DNA of 36,846 nucleotides from a virus: positions 1 through 36,846 of the IMG/VR virus record IMGVR_UViG_3300031787_000390; one strand, 5' to 3'. A model generated the notes under the pieces. That model saw only the letters and a list, made by a program, of their open reading frames with translations, ran no database searches and was not told the DNA's origin. The position numbers and the translations under genes are program-made. Shown here piece by piece: positions 9,755-34,377 of the stretch. Position 1 is the stretch's first letter. Each line of letters starts with the position of its first letter.

Positions 9755-11137
9755 TTAAAAATCAAAATCGTTATTATTATCAAATCTTTCTATGGAGGTC
9801 TGTACTGTGTTATCATCATAATCACCAGTATCTCCTATGTTTTGCCACGCTGGTATCTCAGAGTCAAACTCTAGCTCTATATCAGCTAACTCACCATCTC
9901 TATGCTTGGCTATGTAAACAAATCCTTGCTTAGCTAGTGGACTAGTGTCTCTCTCGTTTCCTGGCAGGTAGTAAGAGGGTCTAAATAGGAAAGAAACTAT
10001 ATCAGCATCTTGCTCTATATCTCCAGACTCTCTAAGGTCACTTAGTATTGGTCTCTTATCAGTTCTTAGCTCTACTGCTCTAGATAACTGTGCAAGGGCC
10101 ACAATAGGTATTTTAAGCTCATTTGCCATATCTTTTAGCTTTCTTGATACATCGCCTACCTCATTAGTTCTATTCTGCGCCCCAGGGCTTGTAATCTTCT
10201 GAATGTAATCAACTACGACATAGTCCAATCCCTCAGCGTATTTCATTTTGTGAACCATGGTTATTACATCGGTGATAGTGAATGATCCTCCTACGATGCG
10301 AACACCAGATGCGGAGATTCTTCTCTTGGACCTTTCAAACCTACCACGTTCATTAGGCATAAGTCTACCTTTCTTAATTGAGTAGCCTTGAACACCAGAG
10401 TCAACAGCTATGAGTCTCTTCATCACTTGTACCTCATCCATCTCACACGATATGAATAAACCTTTTTTGTTATTACGTATGGATGCTGCCTTCATAATGC
10501 TAAGTCCGAACTGTGTCTTACCAGCACCAGGCCTAGCAGCTACGATGATTAGGTTAGTAGGTTGCATACCAGAGGTTATCTCATCAAACTTATGGAATCC
10601 TGTACGAATACCAGATACACCGTTGCTATCGGCAGCTATCTTCATCTTCTCCTCAAGCTCGTTGAGTAGTGTCTCGTTGTCGTAGCTTTTCTTGTTTAGT
10701 AATGATTTGTATTTGTTATTTACTAAATGGTCTTGTAATAGATTTATTACCACGTTAGGGTCGTAATCATCTCTGTTAGACATGAGTGATAGCTTACCAG
10801 CTAATTCAACATGCTCACTTCGTATTGCTTCTGCTACTAGGCTATCAATACAGCTTTCGTACTCGTTAACAGCGCATGACATAGATATGATTTTACTCAT
10901 CTCTACTATAGCTTCTTTGTTGTAGATGGACTTACTCTTCTTTATCGAATCATTTATCGTTGTGATGTTTATAGGCTCGTGATTAAGATATAGGTCAGTT
11001 ATGGCTTCAAATATTAGTTTTGTCGTTGGATCAATAAACATATTGAAATCTACCCTATCCATGATGTCGTGAACGCCACCTGGGTTACTGAGTACTTCCT
11101 TAATGATTAATTGCTCTGACCTTGTTCTTAAATTCAT
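9755..11137 (-). CDS. dnaB: Replicative DNA helicase, DnaB type
   Basis: 460 aa. The N-terminal helical domain (about 1-150) and the C-terminal RecA-like motor are both present. Walker A is AARPGAGKTQF (about 200-210) and Walker B is YVVVDYIQKI (about 306-315). Later motifs are VALAQLSRAVE and SDLRESGDIEQDADIVSFL, the DnaB arginine-finger region. It unwinds DNA at the phage fork and needs loading at an origin. No primase gene is visible in the window and no primase domain is fused, so priming may use a host enzyme or a gene outside the window. The gene immediately upstream encodes a DnaA domain IV-like protein. Confidence 0.95.
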   Translation of the reverse strand: MNLRTRSEQLIIKEVLSNPGGVHDIMDRVDFNMFIDPTTKLIFEAITDLYLNHEPINITTINDSIKKSKSIYNKEAIVEMSKIISMSCAVNEYESCIDSLVAEAIRSEHVELAGKLSLMSNRDDYDPNVVINLLQDHLVNNKYKSLLNKKSYDNETLLNELEEKMKIAADSNGVSGIRTGFHKFDEITSGMQPTNLIIVAARPGAGKTQFGLSIMKAASIRNNKKGLFISCEMDEVQVMKRLIAVDSGVQGYSIKKGRLMPNERGRFERSKRRISASGVRIVGGSFTITDVITMVHKMKYAEGLDYVVVDYIQKITSPGAQNRTNEVGDVSRKLKDMANELKIPIVALAQLSRAVELRTDKRPILSDLRESGDIEQDADIVSFLFRPSYYLPGNERDTSPLAKQGFVYIAKHRDGELADIELEFDSEIPAWQNIGDTGDYDDNTVQTSIERFDNNNDFDF

Positions 11138-14707: not shown

Positions 14708-14782
14708 TTATATCTTACATGTCAGGATTAACCTGACAATTAAACTATAATTTGCATGAATTTTTCCAGATTCTTTTTCCAT
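14708..14782 (-). CDS. 24-aa ORF after the last FKSE junction (possible remnant)
   Basis: The ATG at 14782 is part of the first repeat junction, exactly as for the real mini-genes upstream. It encodes MEKESGKIHANYSLIVRLIL plus four residues and stops at 14708-14710, just past a palindrome. It lacks the FKSE end and is probably a decayed or truncated terminal cassette. Confidence 0.25.
   Translation of the reverse strand: MEKESGKIHANYSLIVRLILTCKI
14720..14738. promoter_or_regulatory. Palindrome upstream of the HTH-gene promoter (operator or terminator)
   Basis: TGTCAGG (14720-14726), 5-nt centre ATTAA, CCTGACA (14732-14738). The arms are perfectly complementary and GC-rich for this DNA. It lies 37 bp upstream of the promoter at 14653-14683 and downstream of the mini-gene array. 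It may be an operator for the HTH protein at 14333-14644 or a weak terminator of the array; neither flank has a T run. Confidence 0.4.
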
Positions 14783-14783
14783 C

Positions 14784-14960
14784 TTATTCTGATTTAAAGG
14801 TTAATTCTTGTGCTTTTGCAATTTGTTCTGTTAAAAATTCAACTAATATTTCGGTTTCTGTTATTGAAATCCATGAACTCCAACCATCTCTCTCAATTTC
14901 AATTTCATTATCCGAATCAAGTTTATGGAATCTTATTCCTTTTACTAATATACTTTCCAT
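14784..14960 (-). CDS. 58-aa mini-gene with FKSE end
   Basis: Starts at the ATG of one junction repeat (14958-14960) and ends in the next (ELTFKSE, TAA at 14784-14786). The product starts MESILVKGIRFHKLDSDNE and has WSSWISITETEILVEFLTEQ. No known domain; a small alpha/beta protein. It is the last complete member of the junction-repeat array. Confidence 0.65.
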   Translation of the reverse strand: MESILVKGIRFHKLDSDNEIEIERDGWSSWISITETEILVEFLTEQIAKAQELTFKSE

Positions 14961-14961
14961 T

Positions 14962-15171
14962 CTATTCTGATTTAAAGGTTTCTAATCTGTTTACTATTTT
15001 TTCAACAACTTTTTTATCCATTCCAATATATCTAAATGTAATATCTACATCTTGAACATCATTTAAAAAGTCCTTTTGTTGTTGTTCTGTCATTCTAAAA
15101 AACATCCATCCATTTTCTTTGTTTCTAATTACCATCCAAAGCATTTTAATAAATAAAAATTTCTGTTTCAT
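14962..15171 (-). CDS. 69-aa mini-gene with FKSE end
   Basis: The start is the junction ATG at 15171. The open frame extends 19 codons further, but that part reads through the repeat (LNQNR) and is not coding. The protein begins MKQKFLFIKMLWMVIRNK and continues FRMTEQQQKDFLNDVQDVD to RLETFKSE. No recognised family. Confidence 0.65.
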   Translation of the reverse strand: MKQKFLFIKMLWMVIRNKENGWMFFRMTEQQQKDFLNDVQDVDITFRYIGMDKKVVEKIVNRLETFKSE

Positions 15172-15172
15172 T

Positions 15173-15373
15173 CTATTCTGATTTAAAGTAAACATGAAGG
15201 AGACTACCAATGTATTTTCCATCATCAAACTTAACGCGTGTTATTGTATCATTTTCTCTGTTACAATGCTTGAGTAAATTAACATCGGAACAATCATAAT
15301 CAAACCAAGATTCTTGTTTGATTTCTTTTTCAAATGTAACTTGTTCCTTAGTGTTTTTAATTATTTTTATCAT
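15173..15373 (-). CDS. 66-aa mini-gene with FKSE end
   Basis: Starts at the junction ATG at 15373 and ends YFKSE with TAG at 15173-15175. It is beta-rich and charged: MIKIIKNTKEQVTFEKEI, then SWFDYDCSDVNLLKHC, then ITRVKFDDGKYIGSLLHV. No recognised domain; unrelated in sequence to the neighbouring cassettes apart from the end. Confidence 0.65.
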   Translation of the reverse strand: MIKIIKNTKEQVTFEKEIKQESWFDYDCSDVNLLKHCNRENDTITRVKFDDGKYIGSLLHVYFKSE

Positions 15374-15374
15374 T

Positions 15375-15569
15375 CTATTCTGATTTAAAGGGTGAAATTC
15401 CTAATTCTATTTTTCCTTTGTGTTTTGACTTTTCTCCTGTAAAATGTACTAAAGAAACAGTTCCCCATACTTTTTTGCCGTTTCTTATAAAATACATTTT
15501 TGCACCTAAGTCTGGTTGTCCTAACTTGTTGTAAGTTTCGGAGTCAAAATATCTTTTTGCCATTGCCAT
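15375..15569 (-). CDS. 64-aa mini-gene with FKSE end
   Basis: Starts at 15569 (MAMAKRYFDSETYNKLG; a second Met two codons later is possible) and ends ISPFKSE. The middle has FIRNGKKVWGTVSLVHFTGE, a small beta-barrel-like pattern. No known family. The upstream junction is the most divergent copy of the repeat. Confidence 0.65.
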   Translation of the reverse strand: MAMAKRYFDSETYNKLGQPDLGAKMYFIRNGKKVWGTVSLVHFTGEKSKHKGKIELGISPFKSE

Positions 15570-15576
15570 TCCTATT

Positions 15577-15726
15577 CTATTTTGATTTAAAGGTTTTTAA
15601 TTTTCTCTTAGCAACTTCAATCTGTTTACGGAAATAATATCCATTTAGATTGTTGCTCTTTCTTTCACATATCTGCAATTCATAAAGACAGTGCATAATG
15701 TGGTTTTGTATTTTTACCAATTCCAT
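15577..15726 (-). CDS. 49-aa mini-gene with FKSK end
   Basis: Starts at the junction ATG 15724-15726 and stops at TAG 15577-15579. The product is a basic helix: MELVKIQNHIMHCLYELQIC, then NGYYFRKQIEVAKRKLK and TFKSK, with Lys in place of the usual final Glu. Both ends are set by the junction repeat, which supports it as real despite its size. Confidence 0.65.
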   Translation of the reverse strand: MELVKIQNHIMHCLYELQICERKSNNLNGYYFRKQIEVAKRKLKTFKSK

Positions 15727-15727
15727 T

Positions 15728-15931
15728 CTATTCTGATTTAAAGGTTTCGTTATAGTATTGTTTACATCTTTCTTCTGTTAATGGTATATCTTGTCCACCA
15801 TCCCAATAAGCATCCATTATCTGATTCTCAAACATTTTATCTGCTCTTTCAACTATATCTTCAGGAACTCCATAAGGAAAATATCCTTCATTCCATAGTT
15901 GTTGTACCAACCATTCTACTGCTGTTTTCAT
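15728..15931 (-). CDS. 67-aa mini-gene, YYNETFKSE family
   Basis: Starts at the junction ATG (15929-15931). The product begins MKTAVEWLVQQLWNEGYFP, has ERADKMFENQIMDAYWDGGQD, and ends CKQYYNETFKSE. I recall this AVEWLxxxL...QIxDAYxxG...YYNETFK pattern as common in Flavobacteriia phages and of unknown function. It shares its end with 15933-16208 and, more loosely, with the C-terminus of 16581-17225. Confidence 0.7.
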   Translation of the reverse strand: MKTAVEWLVQQLWNEGYFPYGVPEDIVERADKMFENQIMDAYWDGGQDIPLTEERCKQYYNETFKSE

Positions 15932-17583: not shown

Positions 17584-17823
17584 TTAATCTTTCCAAAATT
17601 CATCATAAAAAACTTCATCAAAGTAATCCGCATCTTCCATTTGAGCTACATGATCTTGAGCTATCTCTCCACGTAATTCAAACTTAGGTTTAGCTTTTTC
17701 TTTTTGTTCTAATGCTTCGACTCTTCTTAGAATCATCTTTAGCGTATTCCTAAGATGTTGAAGATCCATCTCGTCAACATTAATCTTTTGACCATTCTTC
17801 ATAGTCCAGTAGTATTCTCTCAT
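17584..17823 (-). CDS. Conserved small phage protein (YWTMKNGQKI family)
   Basis: 79 aa. The pattern REYYWTMKNGQKINVDEMD, then LQHLRNTLKMILRR, recurs in many Bacteroidota phage genomes as I recall, usually annotated hypothetical. The C-terminus is acidic and aromatic (DADYFDEVFYDEFWKD). It overlaps the replisome-organiser-like gene upstream (ATGA), so the two are probably translated together. Confidence 0.6.
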   Translation of the reverse strand: MREYYWTMKNGQKINVDEMDLQHLRNTLKMILRRVEALEQKEKAKPKFELRGEIAQDHVAQMEDADYFDEVFYDEFWKD

Positions 17824-18392
17824 ATTAAATTTTTACATTTGTCCAACATCTCTGATATATTATTTCTATTTTCTTCCGAATAATGGAAGAACTCAAACTG
17901 TAAATAGTAAGCGACAGATTCAAAAGCTTTTTCTCTATTTAGATTTCTTTCTTCTATTGCTTTTTCTATTTTATTTATAAATTCTTCTTTACTTATTAAT
18001 ACTTTATTATTTATATTATTTATTATTTCTTTATTATTTATATTTTCTATTTTATTATTTATTATTTGGTTGGAGGGATGCTTCAAGGGTAGTTCAACCA
18101 CCCCTTCAAGGGACCCTTCAAGGGTTTGATTGTTATTTAATTGATTTTCAATACGTTTCAAACCACCTTTTTCACCAAGTTGTTTTGAATTGATAACAAA
18201 GTCCATTGTCTTTTTATAATTATTGAAATATTTTTTTACGATTTTAGTTTTTATTGGAACTAAATTGCCCTGATAATATTCAGAAACTGCAAAAAGCCAT
18301 TGGATATAATGCTTTTCATTTTCAAAAAATTGTTTTGCTAATTGCATATCTTCAAAGGTAATCTTGAAGAAATCTTTTTTTTCCTTTTTCAT
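17820..18392 (-). CDS. Replisome-organiser / replication initiator-like protein
   Basis: 190 aa from the ATG at 18392; the open frame reaches a TTG at 18431 that I did not use. The N-terminal 85 residues (DFFKITFEDMQLAKQFFEN, then QGNLVPIKTKIVKKYFNNYK) look like the winged-helix part of phage initiators. The middle has repeated LEG motifs (TLEGSLEGVVELPL) and an Asn/Ile-rich linker (NNKIENINNKEIINN). The C-terminal helix bundle could bind the helicase. The DNA encoding the linker holds spaced iterons and a pure AT tract, as in lambda O, where the origin lies inside the initiator gene. Initiator role inferred. Confidence 0.6.
   Translation of the reverse strand: MKKEKKDFFKITFEDMQLAKQFFENEKHYIQWLFAVSEYYQGNLVPIKTKIVKKYFNNYKKTMDFVINSKQLGEKGGLKRIENQLNNNQTLEGSLEGVVELPLKHPSNQIINNKIENINNKEIINNINNKVLISKEEFINKIEKAIEERNLNREKAFESVAYYLQFEFFHYSEENRNNISEMLDKCKNLI
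17993..18126. other. Candidate replication origin: iterons plus AT-rich tract inside the initiator gene
   Basis: Four TTCAA cores stand at 18082, 18093, 18105 and 18117, spaced 11, 12 and 12 bp. Three of them lie in CTTCAAGGG (18081-18089, 18104-18112, 18116-18124), a near-palindrome when preceded by CC. Directly to the left, 17993-18067 holds about 75 bp with no G and only three C. Helically phased iterons beside an AT-rich unwinding tract is the lambda-O-type origin layout. Confidence 0.5.
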
Positions 18393-18535
18393 GTGGTCGT
18401 TATTTATAAACTCCCTGTATGATAGCCACAACCACGAGGCGTTTCAATACAAGGAGTCTTTGTTATACAAAAAAAATGTATTTTTAATTTTAGATATGGT
18501 TGTTACTTAACCACAAATATACGAAATAAATTTAA
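18393..18535 (-). promoter_or_regulatory. Intergenic leader with hairpin and -7-like box
   Basis: About 140 bp without a gene before the initiator-like gene. It contains an ATACA/TGTAT hairpin with an A7 loop (18465-18481), a TGGTT...AACCA inverted repeat (18498-18514) and, on the minus strand, TATATTTG (18521-18514), which fits the -7 box but has no TTG at the right distance. It probably holds the control region of the initiator gene. Confidence 0.4.
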
Positions 18536-25573: not shown

Positions 25574-25675
25574 GTACGTACAGTTTTTTCTCTTGTAACT
25601 ATTACTCCTTTGTATTCACTATAGAATAATAACAAGTTGACTAACTGTAAAATGATTTTTAATATTTCAAAGAAT

Positions 25676-25800
25676 AGTTAACTACTAGTTAAGAACTATT
25701 TTTGTAGTTAACAAACAAACTAACTGTATAAAATAACCGCTTGTTATTTTTTTTTATCTACTAGTTAAGAACTATTTTAATGTAAATAATACAAGTTAAT
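25676..25800. repeat. Cluster of AGTTAAC/G/T boxes with a 21-bp direct repeat
   Basis: AGTTAAC or close variants at 25676-25682, 25687-25693, 25706-25712, 25763-25769 and 25794-25800, plus the inverted pair at 25522-25543. A 21-bp direct repeat (CTACTAGTTAAGAAC then TATTTT) occurs at 25682-25702 and 25758-25778, 76 bp apart, and contains AGTT-AAG-AACT. CTAACTGTA also occurs twice. Iterated boxes suggest an operator array or iterons. Confidence 0.55.
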
Positions 25801-25814
25801 TGTTATAATTTGCA

Positions 25815-26659: not shown

Positions 26660-26722
26660 TTATATATAAATTTTCTTTATGATAACAGTTAATGCAACAG
26701 TATTGCAATAAAATAAAATAGA

Positions 26723-26796
26723 TATAGTACAAAGTACAATAACTAAATGAGATGGTCCGCAATGATCTACTTATAGTACAAAGTACAATAACTAAA
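26723..26796. repeat. 25-bp exact direct repeat, 49 bp apart
   Basis: The unit TATAGTACAAAGTACAATA then ACTAAA occurs at 26723-26747 and 26772-26796. Each holds the inverted pair GTAC-AAA-GTAC. The start-to-start distance of 49 bp is near a whole number of helical turns. AGTACAAAGT recurs at 27383-27392. Confidence 0.75.
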
Positions 26797-34304: not shown

Positions 34305-34377
34305 GCTCCAAGACAGAGAATCGAACTCTGTGTTCTCCGACTTAAAAGGTCGGGCTTTACCACTAAGCTACTTGGCC
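34305..34377 (-). tRNA. tRNA-Lys (anticodon UUU)
   Basis: 73-nt minus-strand tRNA. D arm GCTT...AAGC with GGTA, anticodon stem CCGAC/GTCGG around CTTTTAA (anticodon TTT) and T arm CAGAG-TTCGATT-CTCTG are all present. The acceptor stem pairs over CCAAG/CTTGG but the first two pairs (GG against AG) do not match, and CCA is not encoded. It reads AAA/AAG, the most used Lys codons in this AT-rich phage. Function may be reduced by the acceptor mismatches. Confidence 0.65.

Follow-up and report, generated by a model that had tools for sequence, protein, structure and literature searches.

A segment inside a leftward gene of the window (the whole stretch analysed here, 36,846 nucleotides of IMG/VR virus record IMGVR_UViG_3300031787_000390) appears to be a phage replication origin located within its own initiator gene and acting in the manner of ori-lambda or SPP1 oriL. 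We give this reading, which derives from sequence analysis, a probability of roughly 85%. The gene encodes a folded N-terminal domain, a linker that coincides with a group of phased iterons and with most of an AT tract, and a folded C-terminal domain. The features are as follows.

18514–18521, minus strand: TATATTTG, a Bacteroidota-type −7 promoter element, ~130 bp upstream of the initiator
17820–18392, minus strand: putative replication initiator gene (P0001, 190 aa)
18135–18362, minus strand: N-terminal folded domain (codons 11–86), presumed to bind the iterons
18009–18134, minus strand: linker (residues 87–128), predicted by AlphaFold to be disordered
18081–18125, minus strand: iteron array ACCCTTGAAGGGTCCCTTGAAGGGGTGGTTGAACTACCCTTGAAG, 45 bp within the linker, four units with centre spacing 12, 12 and 11
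18116–18122, minus strand: iteron unit 1, CTTGAAG, frame L-E
18104–18110, minus strand: iteron unit 2, CTTGAAG, frame L-E
18092–18098, minus strand: iteron unit 3, GTTGAAC, divergent yet pseudo-palindromic
18081–18087, minus strand: iteron unit 4, CTTGAAG, in another reading frame (P-L-K)
17993–18067, minus strand: AT tract, the proposed DNA unwinding element
17823–18008, minus strand: C-terminal folded domain (codons 129–190), presumed contact for a helicase or loader
9755–11137, minus strand: DnaB-type replicative helicase, in the same leftward gene block as the initiator

The initiator gene starts with the ATG at 18392; the TTG at 18431 merely begins the longest open reading frame. The AlphaFold model (7 sequences, mean pLDDT 62) divides the protein into two folded parts and a disordered segment at residues 87–128. 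The entire array lies in the disordered linker, as do 59 bp of the 75-bp AT tract; the final 16 bp of the tract code for the beginning of the C-terminal domain. The N-terminal domain, in which KYFNNYKKTMDF is the most conserved segment, reaches a pLDDT of 85 when modelled alone, and the best matches to this model in a structural search were viral DUF6291 proteins and a replisome organiser (TM ~0.5–0.7, E ≥ 0.18). Searches of Pfam and PHROG returned no family for the protein at E 0.1, NCBIfam returned nothing relevant, the DUF6291 profile gave no match above the cut-off (hhalign probability 0.2%), and profile search found no DUF1376 domain. PDB searches by sequence and by structure matched neither the protein nor the N-domain model, named phages yielded neither a sequence match to the window protein nor a relative of its N-terminal domain, and no relative was found among 84,980 bacterial and archaeal genomes (one per species). 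The protein has no sequence match to any known phage initiator family and is not of the lambda O family, and what stands of the original prediction of a lambda-O-like origin is its layout. The label replisome-organiser-like finds no support in annotation of the gene itself and draws instead on the weak structural match and on the adjacent helicase genes and known-initiator C-terminal domains of its relatives. Viewed as a two-domain initiator, the window protein has two domains and a linker in the model, a C-terminal domain without assignment, and a DnaB gene that is not adjacent to the initiator, lying 6.7 kb away.

The four TTCAA cores that had been noticed at spacings of 11, 12 and 12 bp are located at 18082, 18093, 18105 and 18117. 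Three of them lie in copies of CTTCAAGGG (at 18081, 18104 and 18116), as originally described, and the fourth reads GTTCAAC. All four units are pseudo-palindromic, with the form CCCTT-G-AAGGG in the best copies. The array, to which a repetitive LEG stretch had been attributed, encodes TLEG-SLEG-VVEL-PLK, with the last unit in a different frame. In 20,000 synonymous recodings of the linker, which left the protein unchanged and drew codons according to their usage in the phage, the observed repeat counts were never reached. The linker contains three CTTGAAG cores compared to a recoded mean of 0.2, five 9-mer repeats compared to 0.15, and three 11-bp pseudo-palindromes compared to 0.03. The array uses the codons ACC, GGG, TCC and CCC, each at 5–8% usage in the phage. 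Single-strand hairpins of the array were not notable (z about −1.5).

The adjoining stretch of about 75 bp, devoid of G and with three C, was likewise found as described, at 17993–18067 (T52 A20 C3 G0). It is the most AT-rich 75-mer in the window and, although coding, also the least stable one by nearest-neighbour energies. Its stability is lower than the amino acids require (p ~1 × 10−4 by synonymous recoding; p ~5 × 10−4 for the C count). Elsewhere in the gene, a slight excess of instability is present in the C-domain part (p = 0.005–0.01), and no clear excess in the N-domain part. Recoding yielded the repeats in no case and the low stability of the tract almost never, which supports the earlier suggestion that the codons are constrained by the DNA. 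Two marks of an intragenic phage origin of the ori-lambda or SPP1 oriL type, at least three iterons within the initiator gene and an adjoining easily melted AT tract, are present in the window.

Scans of IMG/VR located the N-terminal domain on nine other contigs, with 41–97% identity over that domain. In all nine relatives a CTTSAAG-like array begins at the end of the N-terminal domain, followed by a low-stability tract in the eight that were measured (all but L006, which is near-identical to L005). In the long relatives G001 (65 kb) and G002 (66 kb) the same place holds the least stable 75-mer, and in the six further relatives the tract downstream of the iterons falls in the 99.7–99.99th percentile of helix instability of its contig. 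The array is single-copy in G001, L005, L006, L047 and L048. Between the window and its nearest relative, G001, the invariance of the block is only modestly significant (P = 0.004), other invariant runs of 140–190 bp being present as well. Two scans of viral contigs with DNA patterns returned mostly unrelated genes, and the short iteron pattern is therefore not diagnostic alone; the repeats of L120 and L102 do not count as independent evidence, since both were found via the DNA pattern.

DNA-binding proteins commonly have binding sites in or near their own genes, and the repeats could form an operator through which the protein limits its own expression, the AT tract being a mere reflection of an Asn/Lys/Ile linker. 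Repeats in an initiator gene could also do both jobs. We consider a purely regulatory role unlikely, as the amino acids alone do not account for the instability of the AT tract, and as an unstable tract, superfluous for an operator, comes after the repeats in each relative where stability was measured. The promoter-like element at 18514–18521 also lies ~390 bp upstream of the repeats.

It is less likely still that the true origin lies elsewhere, in the noncoding stretch at 25.0–27.5 kb or the AT-rich gap at 34.9–35.2 kb, and that the linker site is secondary. There are direct repeats at 25.6–26.8 kb, near the minimum of the cumulative GC skew, and the region at 35.0 kb is the second least stable of the window; however, a 16-mer search did not find the repeats in G001 or G002, the change in skew coincides with a change in gene direction, and DnaA boxes do not exceed chance (two were found, below the chance expectation). 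The cumulative GC skew that had been proposed as a check on the linker site is uninformative, as it tracks gene direction, and the third-position skew is unchanged across the site (p = 0.38). An origin at either place would also be compatible with an origin in the linker, because SPP1 shows that two origins can coexist.

The noncoding DNA near the change in gene direction contains the direct repeats TACTAGTTAAGAACTATTTT and TATAGTACAAAGTACAATAACTAAA (25630–25803 and 26712–26796). The window further carries a tRNA-Lys gene (anticodon ttt; 34305–34376, minus strand) and, at 14770–15747 in the block of leftward genes, a 34-bp element around TTCTATTCTGATTTAAAGGTTT in four copies, short pieces of which are also present at several sites in G001 and G002.

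The spacing of the units is kept among the relatives while the encoded peptide changes. The units are 12, 12 and 11 bp apart in the window, 12 and 11 in G002, 12 and 12 in L005, 12, 11 and 12 in L047, 12 and 12 with a weaker fourth unit at 12 in L120, and 12, 12 and 12 in L128, and L130 has steps of 11–12 bp or double that. The peptides at the units include LEG, PLK, PLY, FKEPLQ and LQG. Steps of 11 bases shift the reading frame, and the same DNA core consequently codes for LEG or for PLK, PLQ or FKE; units in shifting frames occur in the window, L047, L048 and L130, the last of which uses all three frames. In L128 all four units have C at the centre (TTCAA) and encode Leu/Val-Gln-Gly, with Gln for Glu throughout and the pseudo-palindrome kept. 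Since the units span reading frames and L128 has its central C in all four, these comparisons indicate that what is conserved is the DNA and not the peptide. G002 is the weakest case, with degenerate units not above synonymous chance (p = 0.31). With that exception, the original expectation, that iterons and AT tract would be retained in relatives whose linker residues had diverged, is borne out down to 41% identity, with the iterons 11–12 bp apart. A TLEG/LEG protein motif spread by slippage, with the DNA repeat as a by-product, would fit the presence of TLEG at the first unit in 8 of 10 N-domain sequences and a unit of mostly 12 bp, or four codons, but is very improbable given the 11-bp-spaced units that keep the DNA core in other frames, the CTTSAAG pattern kept in L128 despite its substitution, and the use of those rare codons that preserve the DNA pattern.

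In most relatives the C-terminal domain is replaced by unrelated domains. There are at least four unrelated types among the relatives, several of them from known phage initiators: the window type is shared by the window, G001 and G002, phrog_19415 is found in L005 and L006, the phrog_270 initiation-protein type in L047 and Phg_2220_C in L048, and L120, L128 and L130 have other types. L047 and L048 are 93% identical in the N-terminal domain, whereas their C-terminal domains are unrelated. The phrog_19415 C-terminus also occurs in Bacteroidota phages, where helicase or loader genes lie next to it. A helicase-like gene lies directly downstream of the initiator in L005 and L048, and a reading of the translations places a helicase gene there in L047, L120 and L128 as well; none was identified directly after the initiator in L130. 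Just upstream of the initiator, L005 and L048 have a gene encoding a helix-turn-helix that resembles the DnaA C-terminus, a match below the cut-off (L074 6632–7066; L048 5210–5623), and a DnaA-annotated gene occupies a matching neighbourhood in phages phi13:2 and phi19:3.

A TAnnTTTG element is also located at −115 to −138 in seven relatives. We take this element to be of the Bacteroidota promoter type. Its presence upstream of the initiator in the window and these relatives, together with a C-terminal domain that a relative shares with Bacteroidota phages, points to Bacteroidota as the probable host phylum. Between the promoter-like element and the initiator start, the leader has a strong hairpin (window 18400–18460, minus strand). 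A hairpin recurs in G001 and G002 with differing sequences (z of −3.3, −2.5 and −2.3; L003 2925–2985, L004 2895–2965), and the leader is 52–62% identical to that of G001, with flanks 90–100% identical.

The layout has precedents in ori-lambda, which lies inside gene O (PMC7466680, PMC6022878), and in SPP1 oriL, which lies in gene 38 and combines direct repeats with an AT-rich unwinding element in a phage that encodes a DnaB-family helicase (PMC6316719). Ori-lambda and the window have the same parts within one initiator gene: the N-domain part, iterons of inverted symmetry, an adjoining AT tract and the C-domain part. They differ in that the lambda iterons are 18-bp hyphenated inverted repeats (PMC6022878) whereas the window has a 7-bp CTTSAAG core every 11–12 bp, and in that the window has no O-family match and no identified helicase loader. 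SPP1 oriL resembles the window in having repeats and an AT-rich element within the gene of the origin-binding protein and a phage DnaB-family helicase, but in the window neither a second origin nor a loader gene was identified.

On the anatomy and conservation observed here, and by analogy with lambda and SPP1 (PMC7466680, PMC6022878, PMC6316719), we infer the biochemical steps of initiation. The N-terminal domain would bind the four CTTSAAG pseudo-palindromes, which are spaced by about one turn of the helix and face the same side of the DNA. The resulting nucleoprotein complex could strain and then melt the adjoining AT tract, and the C-terminal domain, on its flexible linker, may bring the helicase or its loader (here the DnaB encoded at 9755–11137) to the open strands, where theta replication would then begin. 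An origin encoded in the linker would keep the binding domain with its cognate sites through inheritance and leave the helicase-contact domain open to exchange. A linker constrained by its DNA also predicts the result obtained in lambda, where O proteins with in-frame deletions of the AT region retain complementation in trans (PMC6022878).

Arrays of comparable period occur in other phages. The DUF6291/phrog_19415 proteins of Cellulophaga phages phi13:2 and phi19:3 and Flavobacterium phage 11b resemble the N-domain model (TM ~0.5–0.7) and have the C-terminal domain found in L005, but their N-terminal domains have no similarity to that of the window at the sequence level (hhalign probability 0.2%) and their repeat sequence differs. 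In phi13:2, phi19:3 and Riemerella phage CRP5 the corresponding linker contains arrays with a ~12 bp period (TVTD, DTVSD). Such arrays of ~12 bp period, in phi13:2 and phi19:3 and in the Riemerella phages CRP5 and CRP6 (loci L052 2087–2749, L059 2081–2749, L053 812–1495 and L060 2192–2722), lie in the linker of a gene preceding that of a helicase or DNA replication protein, and are candidate origins; CRP5 and CRP6, though closely related, have different numbers of copies. A DUF1376 protein of a different N-domain family (L102 2646–3431) has ACCCTTGAAGGGTTGCTTGAAGGG within its linker and an iteron nearly the same as that of the window, with CTTGAAGGG units 12 bp apart. Replication-protein-like reading frames in L008, L112 and L113, assigned by eye and outside the initiator family of the window, have LEG linkers of CTTGAA units 12 bp or multiples thereof apart. 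That unrelated initiators (the window family, the DUF1376 protein of L102 and, by inspection, those of L008, L112 and L113) share an almost identical CTTGAAGGG iteron at the same linker position is a doubtful proposition; if true, an iteron module moves between initiators, or a shared host factor also reads CTTGAAGGG.

The literature searched contained no origin of a Bacteroidota phage, the precedents being lambda, Stx-phage and SPP1. The kind of origin is known already, and the initiator family, the short 11–12 bp iteron and the setting are new with respect to that literature. The analysis gives a probable origin and initiator to phages that had no annotation for either, and provides a searchable signature in the form of a linker between two domains that contains a repeat of ~11–12 bp followed by AATAATAAA-type codons. 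The repetitive linkers of other phage initiators, such as TVTD and DTVSD, may likewise be origins. These observations suggest a principle by which an origin placed between the two domains would tie the binding domain to its sites and leave the C-terminal domain free to change.
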